Origin: Stenotrophomonas indicatrix
GTDB taxonomy: Bacteria; Pseudomonadota; Gammaproteobacteria; Xanthomonadales; Xanthomonadaceae
Length of the DNA: 64,000 nucleotides
Assembly (NCBI RefSeq): GCF_002750975.1
Contig: NZ_PEJS01000001.1
Location: 682,001 to 746,000 of the forward strand
Direction of reading: 5' to 3'
The position numbers and the translations under genes are program-made. The notes beneath the pieces are model-generated. The model was not told the DNA's origin and did no database searches. It saw nothing but the letters and a program-made list of their open reading frames with translations. Positions 15,981 to 58,842 of this stretch are shown in pieces. Each line of letters starts with the position of its first letter. Within the stretch, counting starts at the first letter, position 1.

Positions 15981-16250
15981 CGAGCGCAGCGACCCGCTTC
16001 TGCTCTTCTTTTCTCTCTACGTGGCTGGACGCGCACGGAAATTGTCCAAGGCCGGGGGAGATGGGGGCGCGGGGGTGTCCGCGGCATGGGCCCGAGGCAT
16101 GCCTCGGGCGGGTTGGGCAGGACGCCCAACCCCGGTCTTGCCGTGTGCGCAGGACAGCGCACACGAGCAAGACGCGGCCAAGCCTCCAGGGACGGATTAA
16201 CGGCGTCCCCCGCGACCCCATCTCCCCCGGCCAAGCGCGGCTTTTGCTGT
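15981..16250. repeat. large palindromic intergenic element, copy with nested hairpins
   Basis: Outer arms at 16050-16075 and 16207-16232 are complementary over 26 bp with one mismatch. Inside are a perfect 18-bp palindrome (16091-16108, CCCGAGGCATGCCTCGGG), a 7-bp hairpin (16112-16130) and a stem of about 16 bp (GTCTTGC at 16135-16141 plus CGTGTGCGC, pairing with 16157-16173). GGGACG/CGTCCC lies near the right arm. The left flank (GACCCGCTTCTGCTCTTC... GTGGCTGGACGCGCACGG) and right flank (GGCCAAGCGCGGCTTTTG) match the copy at 46218-46405. The rest of the 404-bp gap up to 16370 holds no gene. Confidence 0.8.
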
Positions 16251-21662: not shown

Positions 21663-22154
21663 CTATCCGTCCGTGCTGAATGCCTCCGGTCGATCACCCA
21701 AGGCCTCAAGCTCCCACTCGCACCATGCGTGCCGATACTGCCCCAACTGCGTCGTCAGACCCGCCCTGATCGGATTGCCCATCAGGTACATCGCATGCCG
21801 GTACAACGATTCGTCCGAGCGGATCGCATGATCGTGGTAGCAGGCCTGCCAGAAGCGCCCGCCCCTTCCCAACAACCGGTTTGCCTGCTGCGCCGTGCGC
21901 GATTTGAAGCGCTTCATGACGGTTTCCAGTGTTCCCGCGCGTAGTTCGAGCAGCCAGTGGATGTGATCGGGCATGACCACGTAGGCGATCGAGCGGGTGA
22001 AGCCTTCCTGATCCAGCCTCTGGAATTCCTGGATTGCCAGGGCTGCGGCAGCGTCTTTGGCGAACAGGGGCGCGCGGCAATCCACGACGGTAGTCAGGAT
22101 GTAGCTGAGGCCGATGCTGGAGCGACGGCCGAGCAGGAGGCGGACGTTTTGCAT
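21663..22154 (-). CDS. REP-associated tyrosine transposase (RAYT)
   Basis: A 163-residue Y1/HUH-type transposase of the TnpA_REP group. The HUH metal-binding motif is in YVVMPDHIHWLLEL. The catalytic tyrosine is expected in the helix holding QACYHDHAIRSDESLYRHAMYLMGNP. Start 22154 gives MQNVRLLLGRR, which aligns with the usual RAYT N-terminus; ATGs at 22175, 22190 and 22226 are alternatives. Single copy here, no terminal repeats of an IS, and bracketed by GTAG-tailed REPs with their heads facing outward, as in typical REPtrons. Confidence 0.9.
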   Translation of the reverse strand: MQNVRLLLGRRSSIGLSYILTTVVDCRAPLFAKDAAAALAIQEFQRLDQEGFTRSIAYVVMPDHIHWLLELRAGTLETVMKRFKSRTAQQANRLLGRGGRFWQACYHDHAIRSDESLYRHAMYLMGNPIRAGLTTQLGQYRHAWCEWELEALGDRPEAFSTDG

Positions 22155-27724: not shown

Positions 27725-27926
27725 ATCTGTCAGAGGCGGGGCGGTGTGGGGGTGCAGGACCGTTGGCGCCATGGATGGCGCCATCGAGCCCCCAAGGATG
27801 GGTTTACGGCGTGTCCTGCGCGCCCACACCGCCTCGCCATCCAAGGGAATCCGATGTTGCTGTTGCTTCGGCTGTTGCTGTTGACGTTGCCGTGGTTTCT
27901 GCGGGTGCCGGGCGCAGCCCGGCCGA
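27725..27926. repeat. large palindromic intergenic element
   Basis: Arms at 27735-27760 and 27813-27838 pair over 26 bp with three mismatches. They enclose a central hairpin TGGCGCCATGGATGGCGCCA (27764-27783), identical to the copy near 46.3 kb, and the core AAGGATGGGTTTACGGCGT. To the right is a CAACAG-type tract (inverted) and a hairpin GCCGGGCGCAGCCCGGC (about 27908-27924). The 430-bp gap between EIIA and rapZ holds only repeats. Confidence 0.8.
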
Positions 27927-44985: not shown

Positions 44986-45692
44986 TTGGTGTGCCGCAAC
45001 TTCCGCTGGCCCTGCATTACCCGCGGGACCAGCGGCTGGAAAGCTTCATCGGCGCGCCGGACGGCGCGCTGGCGCAGCTGCATGCCATCGCGGTAGGGGC
45101 CAGCCACGACTGGGTGTACCTGGAAGGCGCGGCCGGCACCGGCAAGACCCACCAGGCGCTGGCGATGTGTTCCAGCGCCGAGCAGGCCGGGCGCCTGCCG
45201 ACCTACGTACCGCTGGCCAGCGTGGTCGGCCGGGTTCGGGTGGCGCTGGAAGGGCTTGAGCAGCGCGAGCTGGTGGCGCTGGATGGCCTGGATGCGGTGG
45301 CAGGCAATCGTGAGGATGAAATCGCGTTGTTCGATTTCCACAACCGCGCGCGCGCTGCCGACGTGACGGTGCTGTACACCGCACAGAAGTCGCCGGGCGA
45401 ACTGGGCCTGGTGCTGCCGGACCTGCGTTCGCGCCTGGGCCAATGCGTGCGCGTGCTGTTGCAGCCGCTGGACGAGGAAGGCCGCGCGGCGGTGCTGCGC
45501 GAGCGCGCGCTGCGCAGGGGGCTGGCGATCGACGAGGCCGCCATCGAGTGGCTGCTGTCGCACACCGGGCGCGAGCTGGGTGGGCTGATCACGCTGCTGG
45601 ACTGGCTGGATCGCGAGTCGCTGGCGGCGAAGCGGCGGATCACCGTGCCGTTCCTGCGCCAGGTGCTGGAAGAAGGCCGTCCTCGTTACTGA
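44982..45692 (+). CDS. hda: DnaA-regulatory inactivator Hda
   Basis: A 236-residue DnaA-like AAA+ protein stimulating ATP-DnaA hydrolysis at the beta clamp. The N-terminus carries a clamp-binding motif (QLPLAL, residues 6-11). Walker A is YLEGAAGTGKTHQAL; LVALDGLDAVAGN is the Walker-B region. The GTG start overlaps the perM-like stop (GTGA). The same gene trio is common in xanthomonads. Confidence 0.93.
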   Translation: MIGVPQLPLALHYPRDQRLESFIGAPDGALAQLHAIAVGASHDWVYLEGAAGTGKTHQALAMCSSAEQAGRLPTYVPLASVVGRVRVALEGLEQRELVALDGLDAVAGNREDEIALFDFHNRARAADVTVLYTAQKSPGELGLVLPDLRSRLGQCVRVLLQPLDEEGRAAVLRERALRRGLAIDEAAIEWLLSHTGRELGGLITLLDWLDRESLAAKRRITVPFLRQVLEEGRPRY

Positions 45693-45710: not shown

Positions 45711-45895
45711 GGGCTGCCGCCCTGCACCCGCAGAAGCAACGTCAACGTCAGAAGCTGGCTATCCGTGGGATGGCGGGGCGGCTCAGGTTGCGGGGGACGG
45801 CGCAAGTACGTCCCTGTAGCCTCGGTCGCGCCATCCATGGCGCTCACGCCCCCGCAACCTGAGCCACCCCGCCTTCGACAGGTTCCCGCGATCTG
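45711..45895. repeat. large palindromic intergenic element, inverted copy
   Basis: Arms at 45772-45796 and 45849-45873 pair over 25 bp with one mismatch. Read on the minus strand, the core is the same as in the other copies (GCGCCATGGATGGCGC, then ACAGGGACGTACTTGC). To its left are the GCAGGGCTGCCGCCCTGC hairpin (about 45716-45733) and the CAACGTCAACGTC tract, as in the 27.7-kb copy. Confidence 0.8.
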
Positions 45896-45921
45896 TCGGG
45901 TCGTCGTTCTGCACTGCTGTT

Positions 45922-45985
45922 GGTGGATGTCGACCTTGGTCGACACGTGTCTTGCTTGTGGTGGGTGACGACCGTTGGTCGTCAC
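45922..45985. repeat. two REP elements
   Basis: 45922-45946 (GGTGGATGTCGACC/GGTCGACAC) and 45960-45985 (GGTGGGTGACGACC/GGTCGTCAC). Different stems, same GGTGG(G/A)TG head. The second abuts the truncated large element. Confidence 0.82.
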
Positions 45986-45987
45986 AA

Positions 45988-46102
45988 GAGCGAAGCGACC
46001 CGCTTCTGCTTTTCCTTCTTTTCCGTGGCTGGACGCACACGCAGACTGTCAGAGGTCGGGCGGGTGGGCCATGCAGGGGCGTTGGCGCCATGATGGCGAC
46101 AA
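45988..46102 (+). repeat. truncated large palindromic element (left half)
   Basis: Left flank and left arm match the copy at 46218-46405 nearly base for base (including GGCGGGTGGGCCATGCAGGG). The sequence breaks off within the central hairpin at about 46102, where a SMAG element begins. The right arm is missing. Confidence 0.78.
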
Positions 46103-46215
46103 GTAGATCCACGCCATGCGTGGATGAGACTTTCCCAGGAAGGACTGCCTTGGATCCGATGTGCACCGCTTTGGTGGGGAACTACTTCTGGCGGGTGACG
46201 ACCGTTGGTCGTCAC
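46103..46215. repeat. SMAG element and a REP between two large elements
   Basis: SMAG (GTAGATCCACG type) at 46103-46125; a GGCGGGTGACGACC/GGTCGTCAC REP at 46190-46215. The segment between them (46126-46189) shows no gene. Confidence 0.82.
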
Positions 46216-46217
46216 CA

Positions 46218-46405
46218 GAGCGAAGCGACCCGCTTCTGCTTTTCCTTCTTTTTCGTGGCTGGACGCGCACGGAATTTGTCAGAGGTCGGGCGGGTGGGCC
46301 ATGCAGGGGCGTTGGCGCCATGGATGGCGCCATCGAGCTTACAGGGACGTACTTGCAGCGTCCCCTGCATGGCCCACCCGCCCGGCCAAGCACGGCTTTT
46401 GATTC
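46218..46405 (+). repeat. large palindromic intergenic element, complete copy
   Basis: Left flank GCGACCCGCTTCTGCTTTTC... then perfect 22-bp arms at 46288-46309 and 46362-46383. Central hairpin TGGCGCCATGGATGGCGCCA (46313-46332) and GGGACG/CGTCCC (46344-46349 with 46359-46364) next to the right arm. Ends in GGCCAAGCACGGCTTTTG. Lies between convergent hda and murU; the whole 734-bp gap is repeats without a gene. Confidence 0.82.
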
Positions 46406-53387: not shown

Positions 53388-53412
53388 GCCAGCGTCGGCG
53401 CCGGAGGCAATC

Positions 53413-53835
53413 ATCCACGCATGGCGTGGATCTACTGCAGCATGGTTGTCACCTTGGATCCGCGTAGATCCACGCCATGCGTGGATGCGGCGGCCGATAT
53501 CGCAGGTGCGGACAAGGGATCGCCGCCAGCCGTTCAGTAGATCCACGCCATGCGTGGATTTGGCAGCCGATATCGCAGCAGGGTGCGAACAAGGGATCGC
53601 CGCCAGCCGTTCAGTAGATCCACGCCATGCGTGGATACAGCAGCCGATGCCGCAGCATGGTGCGAACAAGGGATCGCCGCCAGCCGTTCAGTAGATCCAC
53701 GCCATGCGTGGATGCAGCAGCCGATATCGCAGGTGCGGACAAGGGATCGCCGCCAGCCGTTCAGTAGATCCACGCCATGCGTGGATGCAGCAGCCGATGC
53801 CGCAGCATGGTGCCAACCAAGGTTCGCACCCACCA
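53413..53835. repeat. SMAG tandem array (five units) with one inverted element and a terminal REP
   Basis: An inverted SMAG (53413-53435) is followed by five direct SMAG heads at 53464, 53537, 53614, 53691 and 53764, with periods of 73, 77, 77 and 73 bp. Spacers are nearly identical and share AAGGGATCGCCGCCAGCC. They alternate between GATATCGCAGG (first and fourth, 50 bp) and longer variants (54 bp). The array ends in a degenerate GGTGCCAACC REP. No gene in the 474-bp gap. Confidence 0.9.
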
Positions 53836-58673: not shown

Positions 58674-58703
58674 AATTAGATGTCGTTGTGTATCTCTGAA
58701 GGG

Positions 58704-58842
58704 GTAGTGCCGGCCGCTGGCCGGCAATCCCATGCCACCTGAGAGCATCGCGTGGTTGCCGGCCAGCGGCCGGCACTACCACGGGTCGGTAGATCCACGC
58801 CATGCGTGGATGAAGCGGTGCCGACCAAGGTCGGCACCCACC
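58704..58842. repeat. SMAG dimer, a further SMAG and a REP
   Basis: Head-to-head GTAGTGCCGGCC elements at 58704-58726 and 58757-58779, a GTAGATCCACG element at 58789-58811, and a GGTGCCGACC/GGTCGGCACC REP at 58817-58842, the latter ten bases before the TonB-receptor stop. They separate the two parts of the iron island. Confidence 0.87.

Follow-up and report, generated by a model that had tools for sequence, protein, structure and literature searches.

YPAL repeats of Yersinia sit just beyond stop codons. REP palindromes are recognised by RAYT proteins as folded single-stranded DNA, and the candidate RNA TwoAYGGAY (Weinberg 2010) is said to consist of two hairpins with AYGGAY loops. The sequence of RU-2/YPAL was printed by Delihas in 2007 (PMC2759123); in the passage of a review that deals with them, YPAL units are described as mobile, with variable target duplications of 3-26 bp, and as possibly influencing the stability of upstream transcripts (PMC2229807). 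Ysr224 appears in the top lists of abundant sRNAs given by one survey (PMC9029176). The palindromes analysed here were found in a 64,000-nt stretch of Stenotrophomonas indicatrix (assembly GCF_002750975.1, contig NZ_PEJS01000001.1, positions 682,001 to 746,000), referred to below as the window. In one copy, a pair of 26-nt arms encloses a core of 52 nt that holds two hairpins, and the whole forms a three-way junction. Columns were numbered along the strand on which both loops read CANGGANG (the GGA strand), with the 26-bp arm pair as P1, columns 27-36 with 43-52 as P2, and columns 54-59 with 66-68 and 74-76 as P3, leaving a 5-nt bulge in the latter. Compared by eye with the printed sequence (PMC2759123), the 52-nt core is the RU-2/YPAL core over its whole length, in the same hairpin order and between different arms, and membership in one superfamily with YPAL/RU-2 of Yersinia is almost certain.

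A permissive Rfam scan of three loci returned 50 matches up to E 10, most of them microRNA families that fit any long hairpin. The lowest E-value belonged to RF02770, Ysr224 (32.7 bits, E 2e-4), whose alignment tracks the core letter by letter, in the same register, over core and junction. This score lies far below the Ysr224 gathering score of 70, and no Rfam family reached its gathering score within the window; the Rfam search proposed by the first-pass annotation thus gave a match, though one under threshold. The same annotation had recognised no named family and had listed a match to a described repeat as a finding that would count against it. Such a relative exists in YPAL/RU-2, together with the sub-threshold Ysr224 match. 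The family is large and partly already known.

All four palindromes noted earlier in the window are present in its inverted-repeat listing, where they rank with the longest (Table 1). Read from the sequence, copy C is oriented opposite to copies A, B and D; it lies 77 bp past a stop codon ending at 45692 and is antisense to that reading frame. The gap between the arms is 52 nt in B, C and D and 131 nt in A, because in copy A (16076-16206) a block of extra hairpins breaks the first core hairpin, with the second core hairpin following after the block. This insert lies inside the P2 loop, two of its hairpins again carry AGGA in their loops, and a block akin to it is present at another locus (L005). 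The 3' part of copy A scored 35/52 in the core scan, under the cut-off, and copy A is therefore absent from the count of 160 copies given below. The truncated copy was recovered as a partial match to the copy-D query at contig positions 728059-728101. Its P2 loop is short by one base and is followed by a short palindromic repeat of the GTAG type (46054-46135); perfect inverted repeats of 24-25 nt, belonging to two other short palindrome types, occur at 53412-53636 and 58703-58780. Positions 46255-46405 fold at -94.3 kcal/mol, 7.6 SD under dinucleotide shuffles, and 0 of 200 shuffles folded as well. The sequence elements described as shared were only partly so: GGGACG...CGTCCC, thought to be in all four copies, occurs in three, with copy B reading AGGATGGGTTTACGGCGTGTCC instead, while the flank GACCCGCTTCTGC precedes A, D and a truncated copy and GGCCAAGCNCGGCTTTTG lies beyond A and D, neither being present at B or C.

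Table 1. Palindrome copies in the window (window coordinates; + and - give the strand of the GGA loops)
Feature	Position	Strand	Left arm	Right arm	Arm complementarity	Core	GGA loops	Remark
Copy A	16050..16232	+	16050-16075	16207-16232	96%			
Copy B	27735..27838	+	27735-27760	27813-27838	88%	27761-27812	27770-27777, 27793-27800	
Copy C	45769..45876	-	45769-45796	45849-45876	93%	45797-45848	45832-45839, 45809-45816	core on minus strand
Truncated fifth copy	46054..46099	+	46054-46079					between C and D; left arm and most of first core hairpin
Copy D	46284..46387	+	46284-46309	46362-46387	96%	46310-46361	46319-46326, 46342-46349	
Pair C/D	45769..46387	-/+						divergent, the usual arrangement of the family

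The arms differ among copies and yet pair within each copy, as had been read from the four: over 56 distinct copies, mean identity between arms of different copies was 0.59 and mean complementarity within copies 0.95, with 97.2% of P1 cells paired. The top 19 background-corrected column pairs of these 56 copies were all pairs of the structure, as were 25 of the top 33. Covariance model R1 was built on an alignment of 42 copies (A2), where 95.5% of cells were paired and both sides had changed in 186 cells against a shuffled mean of 61; the number of further pair types, one of five measures, was not above shuffles in this alignment (484 of 500 as high). A separate alignment of 70 sequences from outside Stenotrophomonas (A3) combined 28 from the covariance-model search with 42 of 58 pattern-found named copies, the remaining 16 being duplicates, at edges, or having fewer than 6 of 8 arm pairs. 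In A3, where the arm-pair filter favours P1 pairing, P2 and P3 were not filtered for pairing, and the pattern behind the named copies fixes some P2 and P3 letters, 97.3% of cells were paired, 415 cells showed a change in both partners where shuffles gave 112 (none of the 500 shuffles came to 415), and all five covariation measures exceeded all 500 shuffles. On nearly every measure, the arms and the two core hairpins covaried more than shuffles and slid registers did. The first-pass annotation had suggested a covariance model from the copies and had taken the divergence of the arms as a sign of selection for the fold; the model yielded matches in the own genome, the genus and the class with covariation above shuffles, and selection on the fold is supported. 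A long variable stem, P1, carries the conserved core formed by P2 and P3, and the pairing of all three is kept while their sequence changes. Minimum-energy folds retained P2 in 114 and P3 in just 37 of 136 own copies, and P3 in 10 of 29 class copies; because so few of these folds hold P3, this helix rests on covariation.

If both DNA strands were required to fold, as in a cruciform, G.T and A.C mismatches would be tolerated equally. On the GGA strand, P1 of the own copies contained 71 G.U against 11 A.C cells of 3264 (47 against 10 when each arm cluster, position and type was counted once). The same imbalance was found in 34 class matches, which stem from 33 loci with some genomes contributing two (44 against 6), and in 42 distinct named arms (91 against 11). 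When the two strands were folded, the GGA strand was the better one in 99 of 136 own copies and in 26 of the 29 copies from the class. Since arm mismatches on this strand tend to be G.U and seldom A.C, it is the strand whose two loops read C[ANGGAN]G that has kept its pairing, and we consider it highly probable that a one-strand fold has been preserved; cruciform DNA, one of the two forms first suggested, is disfavoured. The comparison of G.U with A.C may serve as a general test of RNA or one-strand DNA against cruciform constraint in palindromic repeats. It does not discriminate between RNA and single-stranded DNA, and the asymmetry would be just as well accounted for if a recombinase recognised one of the DNA strands. 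Mutation directions in flank and unpaired columns, which are partly inherited counts, gave no C-to-T bias on the GGA strand (4 C>T, 47 G>A, 40 T>C, 15 A>G). Of the two, RNA is the form that we favour, with some reserve.

Both loops of the GGA strand match the published CsrA/RsmA hexaloop in sequence. Among the 136 own copies, which were found by likeness to core variants and are not a blind sample for loops, 133 carried CANGGANG in P2 and 133 in P3. In the 34 class model matches the P2 loop fitted in 30, and the P3 loop in all 31 with a 52-nt core. For loop conservation outside the genus we used the 28 model-found A3 sequences, and the pattern-found named copies were excluded because their pattern fixes loop letters. 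In these 28, which are the top matches of a Stenotrophomonas-built model with rows lacking the 52-nt core dropped, the two loops have 12 motif letters between them (C, A, GGA and G in each), of which 11 were invariant and the twelfth, a G, was kept in 27 of 28, and all four N columns varied. The GGA triplets of one copy lie 23 nt apart, a spacing that suits one CsrA dimer. A high-affinity Rsm/Csr site is described as an ANGGAX hexaloop directly on a stem (PMC4005645), an arrangement that the loops of the family share as far as their letters go, and the CsrA SELEX consensus, RUACARGGAUGU with a loop mostly of six nt (PMC7652899), may be set beside the commonest P3 found here, UAC[ANGGAY]GUA. 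Most SELEX hairpins had four or fewer contiguous pairs (PMC7652899); very stable stems may be unfavourable for CsrA, and the P2 stems here are longer.

Published Rsm targets offer some points of comparison. Among the RNAs pulled down with Rsm proteins in P. putida KT2440 were the flanks of ISPpu8 and a 'long palindromic region' that lies beyond PP_3547, and such intergenic sequences are named, in the relevant part of that report, as targets of all three Rsm proteins (PMC7937890); we liken this region to the present family by its description, both being long intergenic palindromes. In RsmU of Xanthomonas, altered predicted GGA motifs left both RsmA binding and function in place (PMC7694677), which counts against a CsrA/RsmA role of the loops; RsmU was weighed as a candidate family member and not adopted. 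A search of the open-access literature, at the level of titles and abstract openings, found no link of these repeats to CsrA. CsrA matches occurred in 63 of 68 carrier and 250 of 301 non-carrier class genomes (tallied by eye from match lists, as was Y1_Tnp below), which is not a significant enrichment over the 369 genomes (p 0.06); five carrier class genomes, one of them 98% complete, had no CsrA match. Judged from the loops, CsrA/RsmA may bind these repeats in cells, with chances that we put at about even.

In the own genome, a search with copy D gave 57 matches, part of them arm-only; model R1 scored 150 of 5968 candidates, all 150 with E < 1e-3; and an ungapped scan of fetched stretches, which overlooks interrupted copies (such as L158, L161 and L171), counted at least 160 distinct copies. 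Full, well-paired arms were present in 143 of the 160, and 136 of these were distinct. Neighbouring copies less than 600 bp apart (n=55) stood in minus-then-plus order in 54 cases and minus-minus in 1. Gene positions were assigned with a crude gene caller to 119 copies, leaving out 41 of the 160 (22 within a called frame and 19 between divergent frames), and in 91 of the 119 the GGA strand was antisense to the gene whose 3' end faces the copy. These antisense copies, like YPAL, lie shortly beyond the stop codon, 88 of the 91 at 30-191 bp, with medians of 83.5 and 91 bp in the two contexts. Among the 28 sense copies, 19 are 300-430 bp away, which is about where the second copy of a pair would stand. 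At named loci, where the first 80 of at least 119 matched stretches were analysed, the same crude caller placed 31 of 85 copies antisense and 16 sense, with 38 lacking a gene assignment; the antisense preference of the GGA strand exists, and it is not absolute. At L181-L199, a terminator-like GC hairpin and simple repeats of the CAACAGC type stand between stop codon and palindrome, and are absent at the empty site L183.

Such positions would also suit a function of the opposite strand, in which a hairpin at the 3' end of the gene-sense RNA caps or stabilises the upstream mRNA, or stops antisense read-through between convergent genes, as proposed for YPAL. The placement of the 88 copies past stop codons, the divergence of neighbours in 54 of 55 cases, the modelling of Ysr224 on the gene-sense strand and the possible effect of YPAL on upstream transcript stability mentioned in the review (PMC2229807) all agree with this. 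We nevertheless hold it to be improbable: the strand asymmetry favours the other strand, and a simple cap needs no two nearly invariant CANGGANG loops.

Outside the own genome, the family was found in 31 of 41 Stenotrophomonas genomes (0 to at least 125 copies), in 68 of 369 genomes of a Gammaproteobacteria sample and in 31 of 398 of a phylum sample, all 31 in that same class; with 125 candidates scored per genome for the genus and 12-13 for class and phylum, these counts and absences are lower bounds. A pattern scan gave at least 119 stretches in named genomes, and the named carriers among the matches listed include Stenotrophomonas, Xanthomonas, Marinobacter, Pseudidiomarina, Alteromonas, Methylomonas, Ectothiorhodospira, Nitrococcus and Thioalkalivibrio. 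One carrier MAG labelled Nitratireductor, outside the class, may be mis-binned. Arms in other families have no evident sequence in common with those of Stenotrophomonas, and in 32 of 34 class matches they pair over 21-38 bp; Xanthomonas copies that at first seemed armless have arms shifted by about 1 base. In one genome (G582, L372:2788-4152), six copies stand in tandem with a period of 227 bp and up to twelve GGA loops on one strand.

Partial-core copies, covering 52% of the window-copy length, were found on 15 plasmid records, 14 of them typed conjugative, while consensus queries against plasmids gave no match. On the one plasmid examined, the partial copy lies 110 bp beyond an alcohol dehydrogenase gene and antisense to it. 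A partial core by an alcohol dehydrogenase gene, near insertion sequences, was seen at L360:4001-4055 and L361:4001-4055, on a wastewater plasmid and one E. coli chromosome. In E. coli, 5 of 5426 genomes had a match, at one place each and four of them on plasmids; among phages, the sole match was weak and partial, in two records of the same phage.

Presence and absence between relatives was seen genus-wide and at two orthologous sites, for each of which 30 loci were fetched, of 40 and 41 matching genomes. The occupancy of orthologous gaps, to which the first-pass annotation had pointed, indeed differs between genomes. Beyond the gene ending at 45692, the scan found at least one copy in 15 of the 26 loci that had sufficient sequence (own included) and none in 11; by eye, one of the 11 (L171) does contain a broken copy. 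At the site of copy B, 10 of 29 loci had a copy and 19 did not. Locus L183 is empty, by eye, from just past the stop codon to the palindrome end; it hints at where the insert starts and ends, with no clear target duplication by eye, and at L193, L194, L196 and L197 only the left part is kept, in a deletion-like manner (by eye). At L010, L021, L158 and L192, which are different sites in different species, the P3 loop has taken up a recurring block, GGTGAGGGCGCTTTG... or its complement.

The 13 minus-strand copies beyond the gene ending at 45692 fall into five arm types. Because different arm types occupy one orthologous position, part of the arm variation is whole-cassette exchange and not just in-place compensation, so the earlier description of the arms as compensatory agrees with the covariation and yet covers only part of their variation; exchange between copies seems frequent. 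These arm types, along with palindromes bearing internal deletions, could be taken to mean that no selection acts on the fold, template switching correcting imperfect palindromes and recombination swapping cassettes. We regard this as very improbable, since a correcting process would have no preference for G.U above A.C, covariation extends to the short helices P2 and P3 (in P3 across its 5-nt bulge), and the loops are nearly invariant.

Patchiness, pairs, empty sites and scars speak for the mobile element that had been suggested as one possible role, although no mobilising gene was found. The folded GGA strand might be a single-stranded DNA substrate of a recombinase or HUH-type transposase, its loops being protein contacts and the family a purely non-autonomous mobile element. 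One-strand pairing fits G.T tolerance in single-stranded DNA, and the patchy copy number, empty sites and scars, the partial-core copies on largely conjugative plasmid records and the variable target duplications noted for YPAL (PMC2229807) point the same way, as does Y1_Tnp, which is commoner in carriers (57 of 68 against 184 of 301 non-carriers in the class sample, p 4e-4). On the other side, 11 of the 68 carrier class genomes have no Y1_Tnp match, and when 34 Y1_Tnp genes were taken together with at most 1.5 kb of sequence on either side (four in the own genome, 30 from a longer genus match list), none of these flanks held a core. Other short palindromes flank the four own genes, and the loop motif with its free N positions is that of CsrA. 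We know of no transposase with a CsrA-type loop motif, and judge a DNA-only role of this kind unlikely, if the best of the alternatives.

Candidates for the mobiliser were examined in turn. RAYT/TIRYT was rejected on the flanks just described; each of the four own Y1_Tnp genes (L041-L044) is accompanied by a different short palindrome type, one of them in the window at about 21834-22109. An autonomous version was sought where copies 1.6 and 2.1 kb apart bracket genes (genomes G106 and G134), and was set aside as the translations look ordinary and the copies lie near 3' ends. Spread of a SINE-like RNA by a reverse transcriptase in trans would accommodate both the single-strand constraint and the variable-length target duplications of YPAL (PMC2229807), but RVT_1 has no match in the own genome despite its at least 160 copies and showed no association with carriers in the genus (5 of 31 positive and 3 of 10 negative genomes), which leaves this explanation scarcely credible.

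In the explanation that we favour, the palindromes are Stenotrophomonas members of a superfamily of dispersed gene-end repeats to which YPAL/RU-2 belongs. Their GGA strand would act as RNA, each copy presenting two predicted high-affinity CsrA/RsmA hexaloops with GGA 23 nt apart, on which one dimer could dock. The expected effect would be titration of the regulator, or its tethering to the overlapping 3' ends of convergent transcripts. Copies would spread as non-autonomous units landing just beyond stop codons, their cassettes being exchanged by recombination. Such a mobile gene-end element, whose RNA docks CsrA/RsmA, is in our estimate an evenly balanced proposition. Counting against it, the GGA strand is antisense to the nearby gene in 91 of the 119 assigned copies and Ysr224 is modelled on the opposite strand; moreover, a copy number ranging from 0 to at least 125 within one genus resembles that of a mobile element more than that of a regulator. 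The broader statement, that mobile elements across Gammaproteobacteria each yield, from one strand, a structured RNA bearing two optimal CsrA/RsmA sites at the spacing of a dimer, is put forward more tentatively, as a possibility predicted from motif and spacing.

If this were so, a genome in which the element had burst to well over 100 copies would act as a distributed sponge that soaks up a global regulator, or the copies would bring this regulator to convergent transcripts at their 3' ends, and YPAL and Ysr224 would be single instances of a wider family. Should RsmA bind, the amount of free global regulator may be governed by mobile DNA, and the differences in copy number between related species (0 to at least 125) would constitute a natural experiment. 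The analysis brings together, as one family with a shared fold, a repeat of Yersinia, the annotation of an abundant sRNA, and palindromes from both Stenotrophomonas and Xanthomonas.

Among described systems, YPAL/RU-2 of Yersinia (and Erwinia carotovora) is the closest, with the same core order, arms around the core, an intergenic and dispersed distribution, and empty and filled sites. It differs in that its arms are unrelated in sequence and that many copies here stand in divergent pairs; the portions of the YPAL/RU-2 accounts that were compared mention neither the loop motif nor the strand asymmetry. Ysr224, in turn, models the strand opposite to the GGA strand. TwoAYGGAY, by its reported definition, resembles the family in its two hairpins with AYGGAY loops and was not among the Rfam matches up to E 10 for the three loci; the same scan included none of the CsrB/CsrC and RsmX/Y/Z families. 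The latter also carry GGA in hairpin loops, several per RNA (PMC7652899), whereas here there are two loops per copy, in scattered copies with no known promoter. REP/GTAG repeats, and REPINs with RAYT, are likewise intergenic palindromes often paired in opposite orientation, but they measure 20-40 nt against more than 100 nt here, no GTAG tag was seen in the present family, and no RAYT adjoins its copies at the loci examined. Within the literature compared, the class-wide unity of the family, its one-strand constraint and its CsrA-type loops appear to be new.
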